Shown here piece after piece: positions 3,785 to 14,751 of a stretch of 43,712 bases of DNA. The notes under the pieces were generated by a model. It made no database searches and was not told where the DNA came from. It saw nothing but the letters and a program-made list of their open reading frames with translations. Position numbers and translations under genes: made by a program. The stretch is from Marinifilum caeruleilacunae (GTDB lineage: Bacteria > Bacteroidota > Bacteroidia > Bacteroidales > Marinifilaceae), in NCBI RefSeq assembly GCF_013141825.1, contig NZ_RZNH01000044.1, positions 1-43,712 of the forward strand, in the 5' to 3' direction. Position 1 is the first letter of the stretch, and every line of letters begins with the position of its first letter.

Positions 3785-4420
3785 ATGGATTATAATTTTA
3801 TCGTAATTGAAGGTAATATAGGCGCCGGAAAAACTACTCTTTCACATAAAATATCAGAAGATCGTAATGCGAAACTGATTTTAGAGCAGTTTGCCGAAAA
3901 TCCCTTTTTGCCTAAATTTTATAAAGATCCTGAGAAATATTCTTTCCCATTGGAGATGTCGTTTTTGGCTGATCGGTACAACCAGTTAAAGAAGGAATTA
4001 AGCGAACGTGACCTGTTTAAATCCTTTACCATATCCGATTATTACTTTATGAAATCGCTGATCTTCTCGAAGCAAACCCTTCAGGACGATGAGTACACAT
4101 TGTACCGCCAGTTTTTTCATATCATCTACAATTCACTGCCCAAGCCTGATCTGTACGTTTACCTGCATTCCAATGTAGACAAATTGCTATCGAATATTAA
4201 GAAACGCGGGCGCGATTACGAACAGGAGATTACAGCCGAATATTTACTGAAGATTCAGGACAGTTATTTCGAGTTTTTTAAGCAGCAGCGCGACCTTAAG
4301 TTTTTGGTAATTGATACCAACAATATCGACTTTGTTAACCAAGAAAGTGATTATGAGAAGATTACCGAAGCGATATTTCACACAGAATGTAAAGCAGGCT
4401 TAAATCGAATAATTCTCTGA
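3785..4420 (+). CDS. deoxynucleoside kinase
   Basis: A 211-residue member of the dNK/dCK family, which phosphorylates deoxynucleosides (purine or pyrimidine; the substrate is not decidable here) with ATP in nucleotide salvage. Visible motifs: P-loop GNIGAGKTTL at residues 10-19, the EQFAENPFLPKFY substrate-site segment near 38-50, the DRY motif (LADRYNQL) near 62-69, and the lid RGRDYE near 141-146. The length fits bacterial family members. ATG at 3785 directly precedes the IVIEGNIG strand, so the N-terminus is secure. It is monocistronic between terminators. The last ten residues (KAGLNRIIL) look like a non-conserved tail. Confidence 0.92.
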   Translation: MDYNFIVIEGNIGAGKTTLSHKISEDRNAKLILEQFAENPFLPKFYKDPEKYSFPLEMSFLADRYNQLKKELSERDLFKSFTISDYYFMKSLIFSKQTLQDDEYTLYRQFFHIIYNSLPKPDLYVYLHSNVDKLLSNIKKRGRDYEQEITAEYLLKIQDSYFEFFKQQRDLKFLVIDTNNIDFVNQESDYEKITEAIFHTECKAGLNRIIL

Positions 4421-4477
4421 AAGCCCTGAAAAATCAAATAAAAAGACCGAATAAATTTAATTTGCATAAAATTTTCT

Positions 4478-4485
4478 TAAATTTG
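4478..4485 (+). promoter_or_regulatory. promoter -7 element of the TPR lipoprotein gene
   Basis: TAAATTTG matches TAnnTTTG; the upstream element is weak (TTTA about 18 bp before it). The start point would be about 4492, leaving an A-rich 44-nt leader. Confidence 0.55.
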
Positions 4486-4535
4486 TTTTTGAACTAGAAT
4501 ATAATTTTAAAAGTTAAAATAATTAAGTAGTTGTT

Positions 4536-6260
4536 ATGAAAAGATCAAAGGTTATTTCCTTAGCTTCTTTGGCTTTAGCAGGATTAGTACTTACAAGCTG
4601 TGCTGGTCTTAATAAGATGAAGAAAGAAGCAAGCGATATCAAGTATCAGGTGACTCCTGAAGTGTTGGAAGCACACGCTGATATGGTTGATGTAAAAGTT
4701 GTTGTAAACATTCCAGGTGGATACTTTAACAAGAAAGCCACTGTTGTTGCAACTCCTGTACTTAAGTTCGAAGGTGGCGAAAAAGCATTCCCATCTAAAA
4801 CTTTACAAGGCGAGAAAGTTCAAGGAAACAATACTGTAGTTCCTTTTGAAACTGGTAAAACAATTACCTACACCGGTAAAGTTCCTTACGAACAAGCGAT
4901 GAGAATTTCTGACCTTGAAGTTAGAATGACTGCTAGCAAAGGTGAGCAATCAGTTGATTTCGATCCATATAAAATTGCTGATGGTGTAGTTGCTACAGCT
5001 ACTATGGTGCAGAACAAGCCAATGAACATTATTGGTAAAGATGCTTTCCAAAGAATTATTCCTGAAACTCAAGATGCTGATCTTCACTACCTAATCAACA
5101 GCTCACAAGTTCGTTGGTCGGAAATGAAAGCTGAAGATGTGAAAGCTCTTAAAGCTTACTTAGACGCAGTTAAAGCTGACGAAAAGAAAGAATACAAAGG
5201 AGTTGAAGTATCTGCTTATGCATCTCCTGATGGAAAGCAAGATTGGAATGAGAAATTAGCTGGTAAGCGTGAAGTTTCTTCTTCTAAGTATATCAAGAAA
5301 GAAATGAAGAGAGCTAAGATGGAAGAATATGCTGCTGAAGAATTCTTCAAGTCTAAAGTTACTCCAGAAGACTGGGAAGGTTTCCAAAAGTTAATGAAAG
5401 CTTCAAACATCCAGGATAAAGAATTGATTCTTCGCGTTCTTTCTATGTACTCAGATCCTGAAGTACGTGAAAAAGAAATCAGAAACATTTCTGCTGCTTT
5501 CGACGATGTAAAGAAAGAAGTACTTCCTAAATTAAGAAGAGCTAAATTCACTGTTAACGTTGACCTAATTGGTAAGTCTGACGCTGAATTGAAAGATCTT
5601 GGAATGAATAACCCAGCTGAACTAAACGTTGAAGAATTATTATATTCTGCTACTTTAGTTGAGTCTGCTGATGATAAATTGAAAATTTACGAAGCTGCTA
5701 AGAAGCAATTCTCTAAAGACTGGAGAGGTTATAACGACGCTGGTATGATCTTATTCGGTATGGGTAAAGTTGCTGATGCCAAATCTAACTTCGAAAAAGC
5801 TGATCAGCTTTCAGCTAACAACCCAGTTGTGAAAAACAACTTAGGTGCTGTTGAGTTAGTAAACGGAAACGTTGCTGAAGCAGAAGTTCTTTTCGGTGCT
5901 GCAACTGGTGCTGGTAAAGAAGTAAACTACAACCAAGGTATTGTTGCTATCATGAAAGCTGATTACGATACTGCTGTGAAGCACTTCGGTGACTGTCCAT
6001 CAGTAAACGCTGCTTTGGCTAACATCTTAGCTGGTAAAAACAATGTTGCTCTTGAAAAATTAAACGCTAACACTAGCGATGCTGCAATGGTATACTACCT
6101 AAAAGCTGTTGTAGGTGCAAGAACTGCTAATAACAACTTAGTGTTCACTAACCTTGAAACTGCTGTAGCAAAAGATGCTTCTTTAAAATCAGTAGCGAAG
6201 TCTGATATGGAATTTGCGAAAGTATTCGAAGATGCTAAATTCAAAGCTATCGTTGAGTAA
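4536..6260 (+). CDS. outer-membrane-type lipoprotein with OmpA-like segment and TPR repeats
   Basis: A 574-residue protein with a lipoprotein signal (lipobox LTSC, Cys22), so it is lipidated and probably held in the outer membrane. Residues 40-170 form a beta-rich region; near 225-270 the segment EVSAYASPDGKQDWNEKLAGKR resembles the peptidoglycan-binding helix-strand part of OmpA domains, although the helix that follows is long and lysine-rich. Residues about 375-500 carry TPR-like repeats (WRGYNDAGMILFGMGKVADA, NPVVKNNLGAVELVNGNVAEA). Codon use is strongly biased to a few codons (GCT, GAA, AAA, GTT), as in highly expressed genes. It is monocistronic with its own promoter and terminator. A role as an abundant envelope scaffold is inference. 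Confidence 0.85.
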   Translation: MKRSKVISLASLALAGLVLTSCAGLNKMKKEASDIKYQVTPEVLEAHADMVDVKVVVNIPGGYFNKKATVVATPVLKFEGGEKAFPSKTLQGEKVQGNNTVVPFETGKTITYTGKVPYEQAMRISDLEVRMTASKGEQSVDFDPYKIADGVVATATMVQNKPMNIIGKDAFQRIIPETQDADLHYLINSSQVRWSEMKAEDVKALKAYLDAVKADEKKEYKGVEVSAYASPDGKQDWNEKLAGKREVSSSKYIKKEMKRAKMEEYAAEEFFKSKVTPEDWEGFQKLMKASNIQDKELILRVLSMYSDPEVREKEIRNISAAFDDVKKEVLPKLRRAKFTVNVDLIGKSDAELKDLGMNNPAELNVEELLYSATLVESADDKLKIYEAAKKQFSKDWRGYNDAGMILFGMGKVADAKSNFEKADQLSANNPVVKNNLGAVELVNGNVAEAEVLFGAATGAGKEVNYNQGIVAIMKADYDTAVKHFGDCPSVNAALANILAGKNNVALEKLNANTSDAAMVYYLKAVVGARTANNNLVFTNLETAVAKDASLKSVAKSDMEFAKVFEDAKFKAIVE

Positions 6261-6281
6261 TTAAGAATTACAAGATATATT

Positions 6282-6313
6282 AAAAGCGATCCAGTAATGG
6301 GTCGCTTTTTTTT
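6282..6313 (+). terminator. TPR lipoprotein gene terminator
   Basis: AAAAGCGATCCA (6282-6293) pairs with TGGGTCGCTTTT (6298-6309) across a GTAA loop with one G-T wobble; an eight-T run follows. The loop is the same as in the rpsO terminator. Confidence 0.9.
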
Positions 6314-6390
6314 ATTTAAGAACTTACGATATTTGTGTGATTTTTTTATCTTAGACGATCCTATAAATAAGGATTAAACAAGCGAATAAG

Positions 6391-7182
6391 ATGGAGATAT
6401 TAATTCCTCAGAAACTAACAAATAACTTTCAAGGCGTCGTATTTTTTACCGAACTGTATCATCGTACAAAGAAGTGCTATGGCGAAGAAATCGTGCTTAA
6501 TTTCGAGGAAACAAAAGTCTTTGAATCGAACTTGTTTTCGGCATTGGGCTGCTTGATATCTGTGCTCGAGAAAAAGAAAAACAAACTTCGATTGGTAGGC
6601 ATACAAGAGTCTATTGCCAACCTATTCAACACCAAAAAGCTTGTAAATGGTGCTGCTCGTAAAGATTTGTGGAAGCATTTAATCAAATGCCAGAATTTCA
6701 CCAGTTCAAGCGAGGAAGCCTTATCGGAATACCTGGAAAAGAAGATCTTCCCGGAAAGACCTGATATCAGCCTTAATCAGCACCTAAAAATGGCCATACA
6801 GCTTTGTGTAGCCGAAGTCTTTCGAAATGCATTTGCTCACAGCAAGTGCCGCGAAGTTTTTATTGCACATTACTTTTCGGTATACAACAAAAAGCTATTT
6901 GTAAGCATTGTGAATAAAGGGAAAACTTTTACCGATGTCTCGAGTGTAAACCATCCCATTGCGGCCATGGAGTGGTCGGTTCAAAATGGAACTACCAGTG
7001 CAAAACGAAATCACAAAGGAATTGGAATTTATACCATCAGGCAGTTTGTGATGCAAAACCAGGGTAAAATTCAAATCATGTCGGGATCGGCAGTATGGAA
7101 ACAGGTAAAACAACGAACCTTCTCGAAAGAGTACGAGAAGGCATTTCCTGGATCGCTGATTACCTTGGAGTTTAACCTCTAA
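6391..7182 (+). CDS. STAS-like / HATPase (GHKL) regulatory protein
   Basis: A 263-residue cytoplasmic protein with two recognisable parts. Residues 1-80 resemble a STAS-type regulatory domain (EEIVLNFEETKVFESNLFSALGCLISVL). Residues about 125-263 form a GHKL ATPase domain: N box VAEVFRNAFAH near 146-156, a G1-box-like VNKGKTF near 175-181 and a G2 box KGIGIYTIRQFV near 210-221. The usual Asp of the G1 box is Asn here, which may weaken ATP binding. There is no dimerisation/phosphoacceptor histidine domain, so it is not a standard sensor kinase; anti-sigma or partner-switch-like regulation is one possibility. Its stop lies 1 nt from the stop of the convergent methyltransferase gene. Confidence 0.75.
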   Translation: MEILIPQKLTNNFQGVVFFTELYHRTKKCYGEEIVLNFEETKVFESNLFSALGCLISVLEKKKNKLRLVGIQESIANLFNTKKLVNGAARKDLWKHLIKCQNFTSSSEEALSEYLEKKIFPERPDISLNQHLKMAIQLCVAEVFRNAFAHSKCREVFIAHYFSVYNKKLFVSIVNKGKTFTDVSSVNHPIAAMEWSVQNGTTSAKRNHKGIGIYTIRQFVMQNQGKIQIMSGSAVWKQVKQRTFSKEYEKAFPGSLITLEFNL

Positions 7183-7183
7183 A

Positions 7184-7720
7184 CTACTTTCGATAGTTCA
7201 TTTTCGAGAACAAATCCCAAAGTACAATTCCGCAGCTAACCGAAATGTTGAAAGAGTGCTTGGTGCCAAACTGTGGAATCTCGATGCAACCATCCGATGC
7301 GTCTACCACTTTCTGCTGAACCCCTTTTACTTCGTTCCCAAAAACCAAGGCATACTTTTTCGAAGCATCGGTCTCGAAATTTTCAAGCGAAACACTGTTT
7401 TCTGCCTGCTCTACCGAATAGATTTCAAAGCCATTCTCCTTTAATTGTACAAGAGCATCTTCGGTATTCTTAAAATATTCCCAATGCACCGAATCTTCCG
7501 CGCCCAATGCCGTTTTGTGCAATTCGCGGTGTGGTGGAGTAGCCGTTATGCCACACAAATAAACAGCTTCGATTAATAGTGCATCCGAAGTACGAAATAC
7601 CGAACCAATATTGTTCAGGCTTCTTACATTATCCAATACAATAACAATTGGTGTTTTTTCCGATGCTTTAAATTCTTCTAGACTTTTGCGATCTAATTCG
7701 CTGTTTTTCAATTTTCTCAT
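7184..7720 (-). CDS. SpoU/TrmH-family RNA methyltransferase
   Basis: A 178-residue SPOUT-class enzyme that transfers methyl from S-adenosylmethionine to an RNA 2'-hydroxyl (tRNA or rRNA; target not decidable). All three SpoU motifs are present: motif 1 LDNVRSLNNIGSVFRTSDA (29-47, with the catalytic Arg), motif 2 ALVFGNEVKGVQ (near 123-134) and motif 3 IPQFGTKHSFNISVSCGIVL (near 147-166), which forms the trefoil knot. There is no N-terminal RNA-binding extension, so it is the short TrmH type. ATG at 7720 is the natural start. It is convergent with the HATPase gene and no terminator is visible between them. Confidence 0.92.
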   Translation of the reverse strand: MRKLKNSELDRKSLEEFKASEKTPIVIVLDNVRSLNNIGSVFRTSDALLIEAVYLCGITATPPHRELHKTALGAEDSVHWEYFKNTEDALVQLKENGFEIYSVEQAENSVSLENFETDASKKYALVFGNEVKGVQQKVVDASDGCIEIPQFGTKHSFNISVSCGIVLWDLFSKMNYRK

Positions 7721-7887
7721 TTGATAGTATTCTGTATGGCTTTAATGCGGAACAAAAATATAAAAAGAATCCGAATTCAATTTCCTGTCATCGGGCTAAT
7801 TCAAAACGGCCATCCATTTTATGCCATGCGCTTCTCCTTATAAGACTTTAATTCTTAACAAAATTACTAAATCGATATGCAGTACGC

Positions 7888-7918
7888 GTTGGTCGATGCT
7901 CAGCTATTGTTGGTCGAT
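7888..7918 (+). promoter_or_regulatory. putative LytTR-type operator: direct repeat GTTGGTCGAT x2, 21-bp period
   Basis: GTTGGTCGAT occurs at 7888-7897 and again at 7909-7918, exactly 21 bp (two helical turns) apart on the same face. LytTR-family response regulators bind paired direct repeats of about 9 bp with this period, and GTTGGT fits the core GTTN(A/G)(T/G) of their consensus. The second copy ends 5 bp before a promoter -33 element at 7924. The regulator itself is not in the window. The rest of 7740-7887 shows nothing recognisable. Confidence 0.5.
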
Positions 7919-7923
7919 ATCGC

Positions 7924-7954
7924 TTGTGATTTGAGCTTTCCTTATCTAGTTTAC
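7924..7954 (+). promoter_or_regulatory. putative promoter of the 8.0-9.5 kb accessory cluster
   Basis: TTG at 7924-7926, a 20-bp spacer and TAGTTTAC at 7947-7954 (two mismatches to TAnnTTTG). A weak -7 element next to an activator-type direct repeat fits a promoter that needs activation. A leader of about 90 nt would follow; it contains AGGAGGT at 7976-7982 ahead of a three-codon ORF (7993-8004). Confidence 0.4.
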
Positions 7955-8048
7955 AGGGTGTTATAAAAAAACGAAAGGAGGTGCAAGTTGAAATGATTGA
8001 ATGATTTAGAGAAATAACAGGAATTACAAATTGTTAAAAGCTTTAAAA

Positions 8049-8471
8049 ATGAAAAAGAAATTATTGTTACTGCTGTGTGTGATTACATCTTTATACAGTT
8101 TTGCCCAGGAGAAGAAAATAACGGCTAGCTATTACCACTCTAATGAGTTTGGATTGGCATTCTTTCAAGATAAAACTGTTTATCCTGAATTAAGAATGGA
8201 AGCAAGAAATGAACAATTAAAAGACGCGACTTACTCCATTTTTTTGAGAAATGATTGTGAGATGAACGAATCGTTAGGAATTGATTTATCGTGTGGACTT
8301 GGATTTTCATACTCTAAAAGCGCTGATAAGTATATGAGATTGCCTGTATACATTACGAAGAAAAATGTATTTAGCGAAAATCTCAAATTAATGATAGGGC
8401 TTGAGTTTAAAACTGAATTCGCCGATGAGTTTAAATTATTACCTAAGATTGGAGTGGGGATTAACTTTTAA
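8049..8471 (+). CDS. small secreted beta-rich protein (outer-membrane-like), unknown
   Basis: A 140-residue protein with a clear signal peptide (MKKKLLLLLCVITSLYSFAQ, cleaved after about residue 20). An in-frame TTG at 8031 would add six residues before the lysine start; ATG at 8049 fits a signal peptide far better. The mature part alternates polar and hydrophobic residues, has short beta-prone stretches (ASYYHSNEFGLAFF, LRMEARNE, GLGFSYSKS, KIGVGINF) and ends in Phe, as outer-membrane barrels do. It is too short for a large barrel and I do not recognise a family. It is the first gene after the putative operator, with 11 nt to the next gene, so it is probably co-transcribed with the glycine-zipper lipoprotein. 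Confidence 0.72.
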   Translation: MKKKLLLLLCVITSLYSFAQEKKITASYYHSNEFGLAFFQDKTVYPELRMEARNEQLKDATYSIFLRNDCEMNESLGIDLSCGLGFSYSKSADKYMRLPVYITKKNVFSENLKLMIGLEFKTEFADEFKLLPKIGVGINF

Positions 8472-8482
8472 AAATTTTAATT

Positions 8483-9322
8483 ATGAAGAAACAGTTCGTA
8501 TTATTATTACTCCTAGGCCTCGGAGTTGGATTTATTTATTCTTGTTCAAAAAATGAGGACACAACCAATACAAATGAAGAAACACTTAAGGTTTCTAATT
8601 ACTCAAAGATTGGAGACATACACAATCAGTTTCTTACTAATGTTAAAAATAATTTTGAGGCAATAGATAATGGAGAAGATGTTGATGAAAAAATTGATTT
8701 TATAAATAACTTTAATAAAAAATTTGTTTCAACTTTAGAAATCTCATCTACAGATAAAACTACTCTTATTGGAGAGTTAAATAAGCATAAGGAACTAGTA
8801 GTTGAATCCAACGTAAAAAAAGTAAGTTTTGGGAATGTTGGATTAAAGTCCGGAGATCCTGAAAGTGAGAACTTATTAGATTTAATCGAAAGACTTAAGT
8901 CTGATAACCAAATAAATAGTGATTCTTATAGAATTTTATCTGATTTATATTATAATTTAAAATTAAATTACAATAGAGAGTTATCAGATTATGACTTAAA
9001 GCTTAATGTAGAAAAACTAATAACAGAATTTAATAATGTTGGTTATGATGCTATATCTCAAGAAGGACATATGTTAGCTACTGTTTTAGCAATATCTATT
9101 TCTTCCTTGGAATGGTGGGAAGAAAATCCGGATGCTTATGGAAACACAAAAGTAGCTCCATGGGTTGCAGCCGATATTGGTGGAGCTATCTATGGAGGTA
9201 TCTATGGAGGTATAACAGGAGGGAGTTGGGAATCCGCAGGATGGGGAGCTTTAGGAGGAGCTATTGCTGGATCTACTGGTATTGCAGGGAGAATAGGAAA
9301 GTATTTGTCACGTTTACTTTAG
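8483..9322 (+). CDS. lipoprotein with C-terminal glycine-zipper (bacteriocin-like) domain
   Basis: A 279-residue lipoprotein with lipobox IYSC (Cys21) followed by a low-complexity Asn/Thr/Glu linker. Residues 45-190 are charged and helical (Lys/Asp/Glu/Asn-rich). The last 50 residues change character: after EWWEENPDAYGN comes a Gly/Ala-rich amphipathic segment, WVAADIGGAIYGGIYGGITG then AGWGALGGAIAGSTGIAG, with repeated GxxxG spacing. Such glycine zippers insert in membranes and are typical of class II bacteriocins and some pore-formers. There is no double-glycine leader; export would be by the lipoprotein route. The gene is very AT-rich compared with flanking housekeeping genes, suggesting transfer. 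A small two-helix membrane protein starts 3 nt after its stop. A toxin role is a hypothesis; a structural lipoprotein is the alternative. Confidence 0.75.
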   Translation: MKKQFVLLLLLGLGVGFIYSCSKNEDTTNTNEETLKVSNYSKIGDIHNQFLTNVKNNFEAIDNGEDVDEKIDFINNFNKKFVSTLEISSTDKTTLIGELNKHKELVVESNVKKVSFGNVGLKSGDPESENLLDLIERLKSDNQINSDSYRILSDLYYNLKLNYNRELSDYDLKLNVEKLITEFNNVGYDAISQEGHMLATVLAISISSLEWWEENPDAYGNTKVAPWVAADIGGAIYGGIYGGITGGSWESAGWGALGGAIAGSTGIAGRIGKYLSRLL

Positions 9323-9325
9323 TTT

Positions 9326-9535
9326 ATGAATATGAAAGTAATATTATCAGCATTGCTATTAATATCTATAATACTCTTAATGTATTTTAATATGGGAATT
9401 AGGAGTCTTATCATATTTTTATCCTCTTTTATTTTCGTGGGAATCATAATGGAGCTTGCATTTTGGAGAAAAGCACGCAAAAAAGGTCATAAAGATTTAA
9501 TTGATATAATTAAAGAGAAACTAAAATCAGATTAA
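9326..9535 (+). CDS. 69-residue two-helix membrane protein, possible immunity-like partner
   Basis: It begins 3 nt after the stop of the glycine-zipper lipoprotein gene, so translation is probably coupled. Residues about 4-23 and 27-47 are hydrophobic helices; the rest is a basic, helical cytoplasmic tail (RKARKKGHKD...KEKLKSD). There is no signal cleavage site or lipobox. A second ATG two codons in (9332) is also possible. Small proteins with a few membrane helices and a charged tail are a common form of bacteriocin immunity protein, and the position fits, but no family match is claimed. Base composition matches the AT-rich island. Confidence 0.6.
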   Translation: MNMKVILSALLLISIILLMYFNMGIRSLIIFLSSFIFVGIIMELAFWRKARKKGHKDLIDIIKEKLKSD

Positions 9536-9594
9536 TAGTTCAACTAAACTTTATAAAAATAAAATAATACCAGTAGAGTACGATTTATGATTGA

Positions 9595-9714
9595 GTGTCT
9601 CCAGAATGGAATCTGCTTTGGTTAGGTGGTAATAAATCACTCATTAAAGTGATGATTTTGCTATTTCAAACGGTTGGAATTATCAGTATAATAATAAATG
9701 TGTTATTGGTATAA
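9595..9714 (+). pseudogene. possible gene remnant or 39-residue hydrophobic peptide
   Basis: An open frame of 39 codons begins at GTG 9595, right after an in-frame TGA, and reads VSPEWNLLWLGGNKSLIKVM and then a hydrophobic stretch (ILLFQTVGIISIIINVLLV) that would span a membrane. It ends 12 nt before the next gene. It could be the scrap of a small membrane protein like its neighbour, or a real micropeptide from the internal ATG. The rest of 9536-9725 holds only a weak ATCAC/GTGAT hairpin (about 9638-9656). Confidence 0.25.
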
Positions 9715-9725
9715 AACCTTAAAAT

Positions 9726-10232
9726 ATGGTAGGTATGAAGAATATTATTTTACTCATAGCATTAACAATGGTTGCTTGCACGAAAAGTAAAGATGAAGTA
9801 GCTATTTTAGATTCACATATTGATTATATATTTGAGCTTAGCATACGGGATACCGAAGGAAAGGATTTGTTAAATCCTAATTCATTAAATCATTTTAAGC
9901 ATGATGAAATTAAAGTGTTTTGTTTTAATGATGGAGAAAAAAAGCTTTTGTACGACAATCAAATAGAACCTCGTGATTTTATTTCTAAAAAAGAAAATGG
10001 TACTTACGTAATTTCAGCTAGCACAGGAGGAGGAGTTACAAAAGAATATAATCAAGAAACGGTTGGACAGGATACTGTATTGCTTCAACTTTCAGAGAAT
10101 GTAGTTGATACAATAAAAACAGAATGGAGATTCATAAAATCAAATCAATTCTTTAATACAAAACTATGGTACAATGGGGAATTAAAATGGGAAGTTGGCA
10201 AAACTAGATTGCCCATTGTAATTACTAAATAA
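9726..10232 (+). CDS. lipoprotein of unknown function
   Basis: A 168-residue lipoprotein; the lipobox MVAC places the lipidated Cys at residue 18. A second ATG at 9735 (MKNIILLIAL) gives a more usual signal peptide and may be the true start. The mature protein is beta-rich, with a segment RDTEGKDLLNPNSLNHFKHD that resembles small Bacteroidales lipoproteins I have seen only as uncharacterised. No catalytic motif is visible. AT-rich like the genes before it, so it likely belongs to the same accessory island; it is closed by the bidirectional terminator at 10259-10290. Confidence 0.75.
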   Translation: MVGMKNIILLIALTMVACTKSKDEVAILDSHIDYIFELSIRDTEGKDLLNPNSLNHFKHDEIKVFCFNDGEKKLLYDNQIEPRDFISKKENGTYVISASTGGGVTKEYNQETVGQDTVLLQLSENVVDTIKTEWRFIKSNQFFNTKLWYNGELKWEVGKTRLPIVITK

Positions 10233-10258
10233 GTTGGTATAACAGCACAACCACCAAC

Positions 10259-10290
10259 AAAAAAAGGAATCCAAAACGGATTCCTTTTTT
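10259..10290. terminator. bidirectional terminator between convergent genes
   Basis: AAAAAGGAATCC (10261-10272) pairs with GGATTCCTTTTT (10278-10289), with an A-run on the left and a T-run on the right, so it can terminate both the lipoprotein gene and the convergent arginine deiminase gene. Confidence 0.88.
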
Positions 10291-10311
10291 GTGTTTATTT
10301 TGCGTAATTGC

Positions 10312-11601
10312 TTACCAATTTACTGGCTTACGACGAACCGGCATGGTCATGCATCGTGCACCACCACCACCACGAGGCAGCTCCGAACCTTCAATGGTAA
10401 TTACGTATTTTTCGTAATCAGAAAGTTCCACTTTGTGGCGAATGATATCTTTCGCACGAAGAATTTCAAATCCATTCTTGTTCATGGCTTCCATGGTGTG
10501 GATATTTCTTCCGTATCCAACCACTTTACCCGGTCCAACAGCAAAGAAGTTTGCACCACTGTGCCACTGCTCTCTCTCCTGGTTCCAAGGATCACCGTTA
10601 CCACCACAGAAAACAGGCTTCAAATCCATACCTAATTTTTTCAGTGCTTCCAGAAGGTTGTTTTCTCTTCTGATATCCAATACTTTTCCGTTTTGGATGG
10701 TAATGTGAACGGTCTGGTACTTGTTCGGACGCATAATTAATGGTTCATAAACCATACATGTATCAACATCCAATAGGGTAAATACCATATCGAGGTGAAT
10801 GAAAGATTCTGGCTGACTTGGCAACTCCTGTACCAAAATATGGCGTTGCTTTTCTTCTTTTTGCGACAATAGCTGTGCAAGAATAAAGTCGATACCTTGC
10901 GAGGTAGTTCTTGTTCCGTTACCAATTACAAGAATATCATCGCGAGCAATTAAAACATCACCACCTTCAATCATACAGTTAGGATCCATCAAAGGATTAT
11001 CGATAGGATTTACCGTTTTGGTATTAAATCCTGGCGTGTAATCGAAAATGGATTGCATGATTAATGATTCGCGATCGCGAACACCATTGGCCATTTTACC
11101 AATTAATACTTCGTTCAAAACCGACATGGAAGCATCGCGAGTAAAAAAGAAGTTGTGCAATGGACGCATTGCAAAACGCTCCTTACTTAAAAACTTAGTA
11201 AGGTTGTCGCGCTTTAAGGGTACACCTTCAATTAAAAGTGTTGCCAGCTCATTTGCATCCTGATCCAACAAATAATCTTTAACACAATAGGTATTGCCTT
11301 TTATACCAACCTGTGGCTCCATTAAACAAATCTTATCGATAATGGACTCTTTGGCTGTATCGTTTTTAAGAACATTTGCCAATAGATCTTTTACCTGGTA
11401 GGTTTGTGCAATTTCTCCCAACACACCGCTTAACTGCTTATATTCTTCTCTGGCAACCGCAAGGTTCAGGATATCGCTGTAAAGTGCTCTTTCGGCATTT
11501 TCAGGAGTCATGTTTTCGACTTCTGCACCCGGAGTATGAAGGATTACTCCCTCTAATTCACCAATCTCCGATCTAACATTTAATTCTACATACTTAGTCA
11601 T
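10312..11601 (-). CDS. arcA: arginine deiminase
   Basis: A 429-residue enzyme that hydrolyses arginine to citrulline and ammonia, first step of the arginine dihydrolase route (or part of arginine breakdown for nitrogen or acid resistance). Guanidine-modifying fold with all catalytic groups visible: FTRD (Asp), MIEGGDV (Glu), HLDMVFTLLD (His and Asp), and nucleophile Cys417 in GGGGARCMTMP. The N-terminal EIGELEGVILHTPG segment is typical. Length is slightly above the usual 405-420. No carbamate kinase, ornithine carbamoyltransferase or arginine/ornithine antiporter lies in the window, so it stands alone here. ATG at 11601 is the only sensible start. No consensus promoter was found in 11602-11816. 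Confidence 0.95.
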   Translation of the reverse strand: MTKYVELNVRSEIGELEGVILHTPGAEVENMTPENAERALYSDILNLAVAREEYKQLSGVLGEIAQTYQVKDLLANVLKNDTAKESIIDKICLMEPQVGIKGNTYCVKDYLLDQDANELATLLIEGVPLKRDNLTKFLSKERFAMRPLHNFFFTRDASMSVLNEVLIGKMANGVRDRESLIMQSIFDYTPGFNTKTVNPIDNPLMDPNCMIEGGDVLIARDDILVIGNGTRTTSQGIDFILAQLLSQKEEKQRHILVQELPSQPESFIHLDMVFTLLDVDTCMVYEPLIMRPNKYQTVHITIQNGKVLDIRRENNLLEALKKLGMDLKPVFCGGNGDPWNQEREQWHSGANFFAVGPGKVVGYGRNIHTMEAMNKNGFEILRAKDIIRHKVELSDYEKYVITIEGSELPRGGGGARCMTMPVRRKPVNW

Positions 11602-11816
11602 GCCCGATCTGTTATGTCGTTATTAAAACTTGTTTGTTGTATTATTTTGTGATTTGCAAAAGAAGTAAAAATTAAGTGCATCCCAAAAAATAGTCTTAAG
11701 TAAATTTCATGTTTTTTAAAATCTTCACAAAGACCTATTAATCTTTATAAATACGAGCTTTTCCTGTATTTAATTTAAAATGTCAACTATGTTAAATTAA
11801 ATCGCATAATCCTGCT

Positions 11817-13505
11817 TTAGTAACCAGCTGCCTGACCATCTTTTCTCGACTCAGAAGCACCATAGTACACACCATTTTCTTCGTCGAACAAAATGGCCTG
11901 GTAACCACCAAATCCACCAGCGCTAAATTTAACCCGGTGTCCTTTTTGCATTAGCTCGCGAATGCTCTGGTAAGAGATGCCCGATTCGAGGTTTACCCAA
12001 CCGCCATCTTTCATTTTCGAACCGGTTGGCTGAGACGAACCTTCGTGACGAATTCTTGGTGCATCGCCTGCTTCCTGCAGATTCATGCCAAAATCGACCA
12101 GGTTTACTACAATTTGAGCATGCCCTTGTGGTTGCATGGCGCCACCCATTAAACCAAAGCTGATAAATGGCTTGTCGTCTTTACTAACAAATGCCGGAAT
12201 AATGGTATGGAATGGACGCTTACCCGGGGCATAAACATTGGCATGGCCTTCTTCCAAACTGAACAATTCGCCTCGGTCTTGCAATACAAATCCCAAACCA
12301 GGAGGAGTCATGCCTGAACCCATTCCCCTGTAATTACTCTGAATAAGCGATACCATGTTTCCTTCCTTATCGGCAACTGTAAGGTAAATGGTATTTCCTT
12401 GTTCCAATTCTCCTGCCGGATATTCTCTTGCCGCCCTGTTCGGATCGATTAATGCTTTGCGCTCCTGTGCATATTCGTTCGAAATCAATTCACGGATTGG
12501 AATATCCGAGAAATCGGGATCGGTATAAAACTTTGCGCGATCTTCGAAAGCCAGTTTTTTAGCTTCGATAAAAGTGTGCAGGTATTCTGTTGAGCCAAAT
12601 CCCATCTGGGCAATATCGTAGTATTTTAGAATGTTCAGAATTTGAAGGGCAGCAGTTCCTTGTCCGTTTGGGGGCAATTCCCACACTGTGTATCCCCTGT
12701 AATTTACTGATATTGGGTCAACCCATTCTGAGTTGTGAGAAGCCATATCTTCGTAAGAAAGAAAACCGCCTTGTTCTTTGATGTACTTGGCAATGCTTTT
12801 GGCTATATCGCCTTTGTAAAAAGCATCGCGACCACCTTTGGCCAGTTTTTCATAGGTGTTAGCAAGATATGGATTCTTAAAAATTTCACCCTTTTGAGGC
12901 ATTTTCCCGTTTGGCATATAGGTTTCGGCAAAGCCTGGATATTTTTTTAATCTCTTTGCTGAGCCATTCATATAGTAGGCAATTAGTTCGCTTACCGGAA
13001 AACCTTCCCTTGCATAAGTAATTGCTGGTTGTAGAATGTTTTCCATATCCATCTTTCCAAACTTTTCGTGAATGCTAAACCAGCCATCAACACAGCCTGG
13101 AACAGAAACTGGTAAGGCACCATAGGCCGGAATCTTACCATTGGTATTTTTTTGCAGGTATTCCAGGCTAAGCGATTTTGGAGAACGGCCACTGCCATTT
13201 AATCCATATAATTTTTTTGATTTCGCATCCCAAAGAATTACGAAAATATCACCACCAATTCCACAACCGGTTGGCTCCATTAATCCTAGTGTAGCATTGG
13301 CTGCAATGGCTGCATCAACGGCATTTCCTCCAGATTTTAGAATGTCGAGTGCTACCTGTGTAGCCAGTGGCTGACTGGTGCAAGCCATTCCGTTTTGGGC
13401 AATCACTTCCGAACGGGTTGCAAAATTATGGCCTGTTATTCTATCCTGGGCCGAAACGATTACTGAAGAAATCAGTAAAAGAAATAGGGGAATAAATTTT
13501 TGCAT
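11817..13505 (-). CDS. ggt: gamma-glutamyltransferase (gamma-glutamyl transpeptidase)
   Basis: A 562-residue secreted precursor. Residues 1-20 are a signal peptide (MQKFIPLFLLLISSVIVSAQ), so it acts in the periplasm or outside, removing gamma-glutamyl groups from glutathione and related compounds. Family features: NAVDAAIAANATLGLMEP near 61-78, GIGGD near 82-86, GRSPK near 106-110 and the autoprocessing site. Thr372 in QGNTIYLTVADKEGN is the likely nucleophile and new N-terminus of the small subunit. GLMGGAMQPQGHAQ near 451-464 supplies the oxyanion-type glycines. The pattern is that of the broader GGT/acylase-like branch rather than the close E. coli type, so the substrate could be another gamma-glutamyl amide. 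Separated from arcA by about 215 nt. Confidence 0.9.
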   Translation of the reverse strand: MQKFIPLFLLLISSVIVSAQDRITGHNFATRSEVIAQNGMACTSQPLATQVALDILKSGGNAVDAAIAANATLGLMEPTGCGIGGDIFVILWDAKSKKLYGLNGSGRSPKSLSLEYLQKNTNGKIPAYGALPVSVPGCVDGWFSIHEKFGKMDMENILQPAITYAREGFPVSELIAYYMNGSAKRLKKYPGFAETYMPNGKMPQKGEIFKNPYLANTYEKLAKGGRDAFYKGDIAKSIAKYIKEQGGFLSYEDMASHNSEWVDPISVNYRGYTVWELPPNGQGTAALQILNILKYYDIAQMGFGSTEYLHTFIEAKKLAFEDRAKFYTDPDFSDIPIRELISNEYAQERKALIDPNRAAREYPAGELEQGNTIYLTVADKEGNMVSLIQSNYRGMGSGMTPPGLGFVLQDRGELFSLEEGHANVYAPGKRPFHTIIPAFVSKDDKPFISFGLMGGAMQPQGHAQIVVNLVDFGMNLQEAGDAPRIRHEGSSQPTGSKMKDGGWVNLESGISYQSIRELMQKGHRVKFSAGGFGGYQAILFDEENGVYYGASESRKDGQAAGY

Positions 13506-13544
13506 GATAGTATGTTTTGGTAATTTCCTTAAAGATAGAAAGAT

Positions 13545-13552
13545 TAACTTTG
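13545..13552 (+). promoter_or_regulatory. promoter -7 element immediately before the DUF4294 gene
   Basis: TAACTTTG fits TAnnTTTG exactly, 5 nt before the GTG start at 13557. The usual 5-8 nt distance would put +1 at or next to the start codon, so the mRNA would be leaderless or nearly so. No good -33 element is seen at the normal distance. Confidence 0.45.
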
Positions 13553-13556
13553 AATT

Positions 13557-14201
13557 GTGAAAGGACCATCTGTTTTAAAAATATTACTGATAGGATGTTT
13601 TGCTTTGATGCTTGGCAAAAGTGGAAAAGCCAAAACTTTTGAGGGCAGGCCAAATCTTGTACTCGACACGGTGGTTTTTGCCGATACCAACCTGCATGTA
13701 AATCTCGACGAAATCATTGTAAAACGATACAAAAAACGAAAGCGGAAACATTACCGCAGTACCAGGAAGTACTGGAGAACGGTTCGGAATGTACGAGTGG
13801 TTTACCCTTATGCCGAAGAAGCAAATGTTACCATAGAACGCTTGAATTTGCAGTTGGAGAACATTCACAGCAAAAAGGAGAGAAGAAGACTAATCAGAAA
13901 AGAGTACAAGGGATTGATGAAGGAGTACAAAAAGCCATTAATGAAATTGAAGATTTCGCAGGGAAAATTGCTCATGAAATTGATCGATCGGGAATCTGGA
14001 CATAGCAGTTATCATCACCTAAAGGAATTGAAAGGATCTGTTACAGCAGTTTTTTGGCAATCAATTGCTAGCATGTTTGGAACTTCTTTAAAAGCAGAAT
14101 ACGATCCGCTTGGCGATGATTGGATGGTAGAAGAAATTTTGGACAGAATGAGTAAGCATGAATTGCCTCCACCGCATAAACTGCCCAAAAGAATCAATTA
14201 G
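13557..14201 (+). CDS. DUF4294 family secreted protein
   Basis: A 214-residue protein of a Bacteroidota family of unknown function (DUF4294). The start must be GTG 13557: a TGA stands just upstream in frame and the next ATG lies inside the hydrophobic signal (LKILLIGCFALMLGKSGKA, cleaved near residue 25). The family core is easy to see: YWRTVRNVRVVYPYAEEA near 72-89, a basic helical stretch with KKERRRLIRKEYKGL, then ISQGKLLMKLIDRESG near 134-149 and FWQSIASMFG...LKAEYDPLGDD near 170-190. It is probably periplasmic. The last 8 nt overlap the tail of the convergent membrane-protein gene. Divergent from ggt, 51 nt apart. Confidence 0.88.
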   Translation: MKGPSVLKILLIGCFALMLGKSGKAKTFEGRPNLVLDTVVFADTNLHVNLDEIIVKRYKKRKRKHYRSTRKYWRTVRNVRVVYPYAEEANVTIERLNLQLENIHSKKERRRLIRKEYKGLMKEYKKPLMKLKISQGKLLMKLIDRESGHSSYHHLKELKGSVTAVFWQSIASMFGTSLKAEYDPLGDDWMVEEILDRMSKHELPPPHKLPKRIN

Positions 14202-14751
14202 AATTTTTTAGATAATTTTCGATTCTATCATCAAAGAGTTCCGATTTCTCGATATAATCTTCAAATTTTTCAGGATTAAGATCCAGGTGAGCTTTAATGA
14301 GCTGGAAATTTTCATCGCGCTCCTGTTCAATGCTCATGCGATATCGATTCATCAGCTTTTCAGTAGTTGTTTCCCAGCTAAAGTAGTTTTTTAACAGGTA
14401 TTTCAGCAGGTAGCTAATGGCTAAACTAGCCAATAGAAGTGTCCAGTGGCTTAGCGAAATTTCCAGAAGTAAAGGGATCAGCAAAAGAAAAACCGGAACG
14501 GCTGATGCAATACAATACAAGGCAATAAGCAGGTTGTTGTAGTACTCTGAAAAATGACTGATTTTTTTCTTCACCCTGGAGTAAAATCCTAGCCAATGGA
14601 AAAAGAGGTTTACCGATAGGGAATAGAACAGAATGGCAACTTCCGAAGCTGAATTTAAACTAAAGAAAATCCCAACAAACAAGAACAAGTTGGACAGTAC
14701 AAAAGAATAAATGTGATTTTCGCCAGGATCTTTGGTATTTCTATTCTTCAT
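14194..14751 (-). CDS. membrane protein of unknown function, four predicted helices
   Basis: A 185-residue protein with hydrophobic segments near residues 16-34, 37-56, 73-95 and 100-118, then a cytoplasmic helical tail rich in Glu/Asn (residues 125-185, ERDENFQLIKAHLDLNPEKF). I do not recognise the family and see no catalytic motif. ATG at 14751 follows the short elbB-side intergenic region. Its 3' end overlaps the convergent DUF4294 gene by 8 nt, so neither gene has a terminator between them. Confidence 0.75.
   Translation of the reverse strand: MKNRNTKDPGENHIYSFVLSNLFLFVGIFFSLNSASEVAILFYSLSVNLFFHWLGFYSRVKKKISHFSEYYNNLLIALYCIASAVPVFLLLIPLLLEISLSHWTLLLASLAISYLLKYLLKNYFSWETTTEKLMNRYRMSIEQERDENFQLIKAHLDLNPEKFEDYIEKSELFDDRIENYLKNSN

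Follow-up and report, generated by a model that had tools for sequence, protein, structure and literature searches.

A glycine-zipper lipoprotein and a two-helix membrane protein as a putative toxin/immunity pair in an AT-rich insertion of Marinifilum caeruleilacunae

What does a lipoprotein with a Gly/Ala-rich end do when the next gene, starting 3 nucleotides (nt) after its stop codon, encodes a tiny membrane protein? Such a gene pair lies at positions 8483 to 9535 of a 43,712-nt stretch of Marinifilum caeruleilacunae DNA (contig NZ_RZNH01000044.1), which was analyzed as a whole and is called the window below. A preliminary description of this DNA had proposed a contact-type cell-surface toxin with its protector, the toxin having a glycine-zipper end typical of class II bacteriocins. 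Our sequence comparisons indicate that the two genes probably encode a lipoprotein-borne polymorphic toxin and its immunity protein, whatever the mode of delivery. We favor this reading because of the linkage of the partner to the lipoprotein, the swapping of tails and partners in relatives, the insertion that carries the pair (with an empty site in related genomes), an orphan partner gene elsewhere in the genome, and upstream repeats shared with other genes; the proposal of a toxin with a protector is supported to that extent. Toxicity, membrane insertion, surface display, delivery, the action of the partner and regulation by a LytTR-type protein are inferred. The parts of the pair are as follows (aa, amino acids).

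8483..9322, plus strand: proposed toxin, a lipoprotein of 279 aa that begins with a signal peptide and lipobox; the gene ends in a TAG stop.
8483..8545, plus strand: signal peptide and lipobox (..FIYSC) with predicted lipidated Cys21, from the sequence.
8546..8560, plus strand: SKNED after Cys21, resembling a surface lipoprotein export signal by sequence likeness.
8609..8635, plus strand: family motif IGxxHNxxL (His47, Asn48, Leu51), from alignments of relatives.
9101..9118, plus strand: family motif SSxxWW ahead of the variable tail; Trp212 is invariant in the alignment.
9161..9319, plus strand: C-terminal Gly/Ala zipper, residues 227-279, proposed membrane-inserting toxin tail, from composition, alignment and swapping in relatives.
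9326..9535, plus strand: two-helix membrane protein, proposed immunity protein; 69 aa, its ATG 3 nt past the TAG stop of the lipoprotein gene.

The open reading frames (ORFs) 8483..9322 and 9326..9535 bear out the gene structure first described, a lipoprotein with a Gly/Ala-rich end followed by a 69-aa two-helix protein. The final 50 residues of the lipoprotein contain 16 Gly and 7 Ala and are preceded by a LEWWEENPDAY turn, and Cys21 is invariant across 11 rows of the lipoprotein alignment. In the 69-aa protein two transmembrane (TM) segments start near residues 5 and 28, as called by a Kyte-Doolittle rule (19 residues, mean 1.6) rather than by a trained predictor, and its C-terminus is charged and Lys-rich. 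The GxxxG spacing that had been pointed out holds for the whole lipoprotein, with 9 pairs vs 2.7 in shuffles (P 0.0002); what sets the tail apart is its composition and the conservation of that composition in relatives, rather than the spacing.

The strongest argument for a toxin and an immunity protein comes from G872 and G1004, two draft genomes of another genus of the class (g437), which hold five repeated modules. The DNA upstream of the tail is 97.2-100% identical over 141-270 nt in these modules, the tails diverge after DAWW (they match locally, at 29-45% identity along 23-60 positions), and the partners, of 93, 109, 155 and 171 aa, differ with the tails. The only tail present in both genomes, 98% identical, keeps a 100% identical partner, and modules m1 and m2 stand together on one contig in each genome. 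A shared part with a variable tail and a variable partner is the mark of polymorphic toxin/immunity systems. This suggests that toxicity resides in the tail and that the small protein confers immunity. The combination of a shared N-terminal part with an exchangeable C-terminal domain was found in G872 and G1004 and was not seen in the window's own genus. When tail similarity was compared with partner similarity by a Mantel test (33 rows, L149 skipped), r was 0.36, and 0.28 in a partial test on the 80 residues preceding the tail. A further candidate for such exchange is locus L184 on contig C13 of genome G757, where two distinct family members are close neighbours.

Linkage of the partner was examined across the family. 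All six loci nearest by tail, one of them the copy in genome G005, carry a small membrane protein of 52-107 aa located 1-17 nt downstream. A strict rule accepted as follower an ORF of 40-120 aa with two or more TM segments whose ATG lies between -25 and +40 nt. By this rule a follower was found for 33 of 69 members, vs 13 of 361 control ORFs (Fisher 6e-20) and 5 of 69 lipoprotein-like controls (Fisher 9e-8); it is present in 29 of the 49 members whose zipper was itself defined by rule and in 4 of the other 20. The members were listed by hand: 71 were reduced to 69 when L045 and L055 were dropped at contig ends, and broken copies were kept. Left out of the count were L130 (it and L004 are one locus), fragments or duplicates such as L178, L180 and several second gene pieces, six loci that look unrelated (L056, L060, L156, L030, L031, L038), and the weak profile matches L003, L005-L008, L010-L013 and L015-L017. 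Including two more loci that look like members, L028 with a 97-aa two-TM follower and L050 with none, gives 34/71. Controls were ORFs of at least 150 aa read in all six frames of the fetched loci and of the window, after removal of HN-motif ORFs; they are not a random genome sample and may include spurious ORFs and members of the second lipoprotein family described below. A search of the own genome with the partner only gave four weak matches, one of which (L022) was inspected and rejected as a pair.

The lipoprotein belongs to a patchily distributed Bacteroidota family. At E 1e-4 a profile had matches in 22 of 392 genomes from the order; at E 1e-6 the figures were 22 of 392 for the phylum and 20 of 396 for the class. 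The three sets share genomes, the own genome being in all of them, and a few of the matches (L056, L060, L156) look false. In a 21-row alignment His47, Asn48, Trp212, Trp227, Asp231, Gly234 and Ser264 are invariant or nearly so, and the family signature runs in the order lipobox, IGxxHNxxL, a variable stretch, SxxYW, W..(A)DvxGA and the Gly/Ala zipper. The six loci found by tail in named genomes come from metagenome-assembled genomes labeled Marinifilum, Bacteroidales, Flavobacteriales (two), Prevotellaceae and one uncultured bacterium. The own genome holds three family copies, in the window and on contigs C81 and C90, and copies with a frameshift or stop occur on C90, on C115 of G005, on C68 of G002 and in G010. 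No relative was found in phage or plasmid collections by single-sequence tblastn with the window lipoprotein at E 1, or in viral contigs searched by two short peptide patterns. No paper describing the family was found by title and abstract start, a negative that is weakened by the family having no name.

An orphan partner gene is also present in the own genome. Contig C49 encodes a 57-aa two-helix protein that resembles the C81 partner (24/50 identities) and a G005 partner (28/49), a match equaled in 0 of 500 shuffles, and a profile search found no family lipoprotein on C49. The orphan adjoins a gene that looks by eye like thioredoxin, a relative of which (67/114 identities) lies near the intact G005 pair. 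The orphan partner and the broken copies fit immunity and toxin genes under changing selection.

The setting of the pair was then compared with same-genus genomes, and the pair was found to lie in a larger inserted segment with the following features.

7777..10255, no strand: inserted segment of 2.48 kb holding the pair; its flanks nearly adjoin in four same-genus genomes.
7868..7918, plus strand: three 9-bp direct repeats at 21-bp spacing (TAAATCGAT, TTGGTCGAT, TTGGTCGAT), candidate LytTR-type site, from a pattern search.
8049..8471, plus strand: upstream gene with signal peptide (ORF listed from TTG 8031); no family match.
9726..10232, plus strand: 168-aa lipoprotein-like gene in the same insertion; no family match.

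The counterparts of positions 7776 and 10256 are only 19 nt apart in G001-G004 (loci L070-L073), with 83-86% identity on both sides. The site is the terminator region between an rRNA methylase gene (7184-7720) and an arginine deiminase gene (10312-11601), and the insertion is flanked by an imperfect direct repeat of the terminator stem, AAAAAGAATCC (7762-7772) and AAAAAAAGGAATCC (10259-10272), which was read by eye. No transposase or integrase ORF is evident within 7777-10255. In G005, a fifth same-genus genome, the flanking arginine deiminase gene is without a match and the nearest relative of the pair sits at a different chromosomal place. The upstream gene product is perhaps a small outer-membrane barrel, judged by eye from its C-terminal KIGVGINF. 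The AT-rich block that had been described at 8483-9535 is real: its guanine plus cytosine (GC) content is 30.4%, as low as in 1.8% of 1053-nt windows, vs 37.7% in the window when 7777-10255 is excluded, but the AT-rich unit is larger than that block and is the insertion itself (31.0% GC vs 37.7% in the rest of the window); unlike the rest of the block, the zipper-coding stretch 9050-9349 has about 41% GC. Elsewhere in the own genome, about 4 kb separate the pair's copy on contig C81 from a tyrosine recombinase gene (L069:1885-3165).

These observations bear on the idea that the pair is no weapon: the lipoprotein would serve in the envelope, its Gly zipper being structural, and the small protein would be its accessory in the inner membrane. 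A weak similarity to the YiaD model of glycine-zipper/OmpA-like lipoproteins (E 1 or better for 4 of 21 members, with 0.078 as the best value) and the many relatives without a small membrane partner would agree with such a role. Tail and partner swapping, the empty site, patchy presence and broken copies speak against it, and we regard it as quite unlikely. Other database matches give little guidance. Neither the lipoprotein nor the 69-aa partner has a Pfam or NCBIfam match at curated cut-offs. Matches of the partner to YrzO (Pfam, E 0.0069, 16.7 bits vs a cut-off of 27) and, weakly, to TIGR04561 (E 0.035), and of the lipoprotein to several NCBIfam models (from E 0.02) and to ZorD in PADLOC (E 0.021), were taken as chance. 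The 21-row lipoprotein profile gave 14 matches in a PDB sequence search, the best at E 0.065, and partner residues 25-63 match a single PDB chain, 8e1e_A (SG122_C3), at E 0.00068, perhaps by chance. DUF6861, a family of unknown function, is matched at E 1 or better by 3 of 21 family members, and L033 passes its Pfam cut-off over the zipper.

Do the three repeats upstream of the pair place it under common control with other genes? With up to three mismatches allowed, 0 of 100 window shuffles reached two matches to the pattern at 7868-7918. The core pattern GTCGAT-N15-GTCGAT occurs 44 times in the own genome vs once for the reversed control, and among the same-genus genomes it occurs once in G001 and is absent from the other four searched. 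By the authors' count the 44 occurrences form 28 clusters; in two cases a pair of clusters looks like a single site seen twice where contig ends overlap. The repeats of LytTR operons mostly have 12 bp between them (PMC6193735), and the own-genome repeats agree. They stand upstream of all three own family copies (window, C81, C90). They are also found 214 nt upstream of the start of a membrane-bound LytTR and 7TMR-DISM regulator (C174, L118:342-1934), which is a candidate for an autoregulated master regulator. Behind further repeats lies a cluster of the type that makes ribosomally synthesized and post-translationally modified peptides (RiPPs; C177, L120:2163-4587), with a grasp-with-spasm ATP-grasp maturase (TIGR04192, above the NCBIfam cut-off). 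Its 64-aa peptide carries a GG motif and falls just under the threshold of the Pfam model for Bacteroidetes ribosomal peptides. The same repeats also stand ahead of a second lipoprotein family, unrelated to the first and 230-232 aa long, on C81 (L069:5719-6653, located behind the C81 copy of the main family) and C129 (L115:3784-4714); it ends in SSGTVxGSxEAMxCVAFGPSCAxGTSIGCA, a 74-aa two-helix protein comes next in both copies, and of 295 genomes of the order searched for this lipoprotein family at E 1e-5, the other 294 gave no match. By eye the repeats are also upstream of genes for an ABC transporter, TonB-dependent receptors and a sigma factor, among others, so this is not a pure weapons regulon. 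With 9-bp repeats 21 bp apart and a LytTR protein in the genome, the pair's site has the sequence marks of a putative LytTR regulon member. As a trait of the family the repeats were rejected: a check at 21-bp spacing up to 700 nt upstream (exact or 8 of 9 repeats) found them in 4 of 32 upstream regions, three from the own genome and the fourth (L168) a low-complexity repeat.

The predicted location of the lipoprotein is the cell surface. In Capnocytophaga the optimal surface export signal is C-X-K-(D/E)2-X after the lipobox (PMC5080379), and C-SKNED in the window is close to this Capnocytophaga consensus, not exact. Among 19 usable members, 14 combine Lys at +3 with an acidic residue somewhere from +4 to +6 (by eye) and 3 have the exact optimum. 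The recurrence of the lipobox and the following acidic residues in relatives speaks against an intracellular defence or addiction pair, in which a toxin and a membrane antitoxin would act on the host cell itself, for example against phage. A two-gene cassette inside an insertion, and the C81 copy a few kb from a tyrosine recombinase gene, might be expected of such a system; the pair matches no PHROG family, its PADLOC match to ZorD is weak, and we consider a defence or addiction role highly improbable.

On the toxin/immunity reading, the toxin would be exported by Sec and lipidated at Cys21, and the export signal would flip it to the outer face of the outer membrane, with residues from about 25 to 215 forming a helical presentation domain. 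The zipper tail (about 227-279) may then insert into a neighbour's membrane, probably the inner one, and disrupt it, while the 69-aa two-helix partner in the producer's inner membrane would block the tail. Delivery would be either by contact, as for Cdz and SitA, or by proteolytic release, as for Fab1 and BcpT (all four are compared below), and the cassette may have been acquired as a unit and be switched on by a LytTR-type regulator. A broader proposal, which we put forward tentatively and with rather less confidence than the pair's own assignment, is that Bacteroidota possess widespread surface-anchored polymorphic toxins with an exchangeable short membrane-inserting glycine zipper, each with its own tiny two-helix immunity protein, and that in this Marinifilum a single LytTR competition regulon, comparable to the bacteriocin regulons of streptococci, joins them with the second lipoprotein/two-helix family and the grasp-type RiPP cluster.

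Several observations weigh against these interpretations. In the tail itself GxxxG pairs number 7 vs 4.5 in same-composition shuffles (P 0.09), which makes the spacing weakly special given the tail's own composition. Under the strict rule 36 of 69 relatives have no follower, some of them having a one-TM or larger membrane protein, including two g437 partners; the zipper-tailed L041, L144, L146, L164, L166 and L168 have a secreted neighbour or none and no two-helix partner. Such relatives go some way toward the refuting result named with the first description, homologues that keep the C-terminus but never have the small partner. All six loci nearest by tail have it, but family-wide the partner is present with many tail types yet missing in others, and is not universal. 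None of the g437 modules shows a lipobox, in part because contigs break off within the repeated stretch, and these may be orphan modules. When the three extra g437 modules are set aside, partner similarity correlates at 0.45 with the 80 residues before the tail vs 0.40 with the tail, so only g437 separates the tail from the part before it. The broken copies come from draft genomes and may be assembly errors. Among the 32 upstream regions the repeats were absent ahead of members from other genomes, so the motif belongs to this species.

If the toxin/immunity reading is true, Bacteroidota could antagonize neighbours without a dedicated secretion machine, since only Sec, Lol and the surface export pathway would be needed, and membrane-inserting tails would be added to the lipoprotein polymorphic toxins. 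Such two-gene cassettes could be searched for by lipobox, IGxxHNxxL, SxxYW, and W..(A)DvxGA with a zipper, followed by a small TM ORF, and how a surface lipoprotein reaches a neighbour's inner membrane would become directly testable.

How does the pair compare with known systems? The kinship to class II bacteriocins that had been suggested is not supported, as the protein has 279 aa, a lipobox signal peptide and no double-glycine leader, and matches no bacteriocin model at cut-off. The Bacteroidales antibacterial proteins Fab1 and BcpT are activated by fragipain-type proteases and have their immunity genes, Rfab1 and BcpI, directly downstream (PMC8406203, PMC9308784). They are a precedent for a variant of the toxin/immunity reading in which a surface protease frees the tail as a diffusing bacteriocin, and the g437 tail boundary shortly past the SxxYW motif would suit such a cut. 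BcpT also shares a lipoprotein signal with the window protein, and BcpI (57 aa) is small like its partner (PMC9308784). By description, Fab1 (about 50 kDa) and BcpT (499 aa) are larger than the window lipoprotein, BcpI is itself a lipoprotein, unlike the two-helix partner (PMC9308784), and the plasmid and phage tblastn was empty at E 1, BcpT's plasmid not being confirmed among those searched. We consider release of the tail unlikely, its probability overlapping with that of the reading of which it is part; because it would fit as well, the contact-type action of the preliminary description is not supported.

LytTR-controlled bacteriocin genes, with direct repeats upstream of the bacteriocin genes and regulator operons, are described chiefly from Streptococcus mutans (PMC6193735). 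In contrast to that system, the own-genome repeats are often triple, occur in a Bacteroidales host and also stand ahead of other kinds of genes.

The Cdz system of Caulobacter comprises cell-surface glycine-zipper toxins with a small membrane immunity protein encoded beside them (PMC5380434), and the window pair shares the glycine zipper and the adjoining gene for a small membrane protein. Cdz differs in having two toxins, CdzC and CdzD, of 86 and 84 aa, which are exported by a type I system and are not lipoproteins, and CdzI is predicted to have three TM helices vs two in the window partner (PMC5380434). The window has a single 279-aa lipoprotein, and no type I genes were found in the ORF list over the range examined, 4000-14500.

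In the SitA/SitI system of myxobacteria the toxin is an outer-membrane lipoprotein with a shared N-terminal part and polymorphic C-terminal toxin domains, the immunity gene is directly downstream, and a predicted barrel gene, sitB, can precede (PMC5562445). A conserved upstream barrel gene was rejected as a trait of the present family: when ORFs of at least 80 aa ending within 150 nt upstream of a member were checked, 1 of 19 usable members had one, the window's. The SitA tails studied in that work are nucleases delivered by TraA outer membrane exchange (PMC5562445), and the window pair differs in its Gly/Ala zipper tail, its two-helix membrane partner and its Bacteroidota host. The likeness is one of architecture, namely a lipobox lipoprotein, a small gene downstream and the possible barrel gene at 8049-8471 ahead. 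Without claiming membership of either system, we suggest by analogy that the pair resembles SitA in its architecture and Cdz in its tail.
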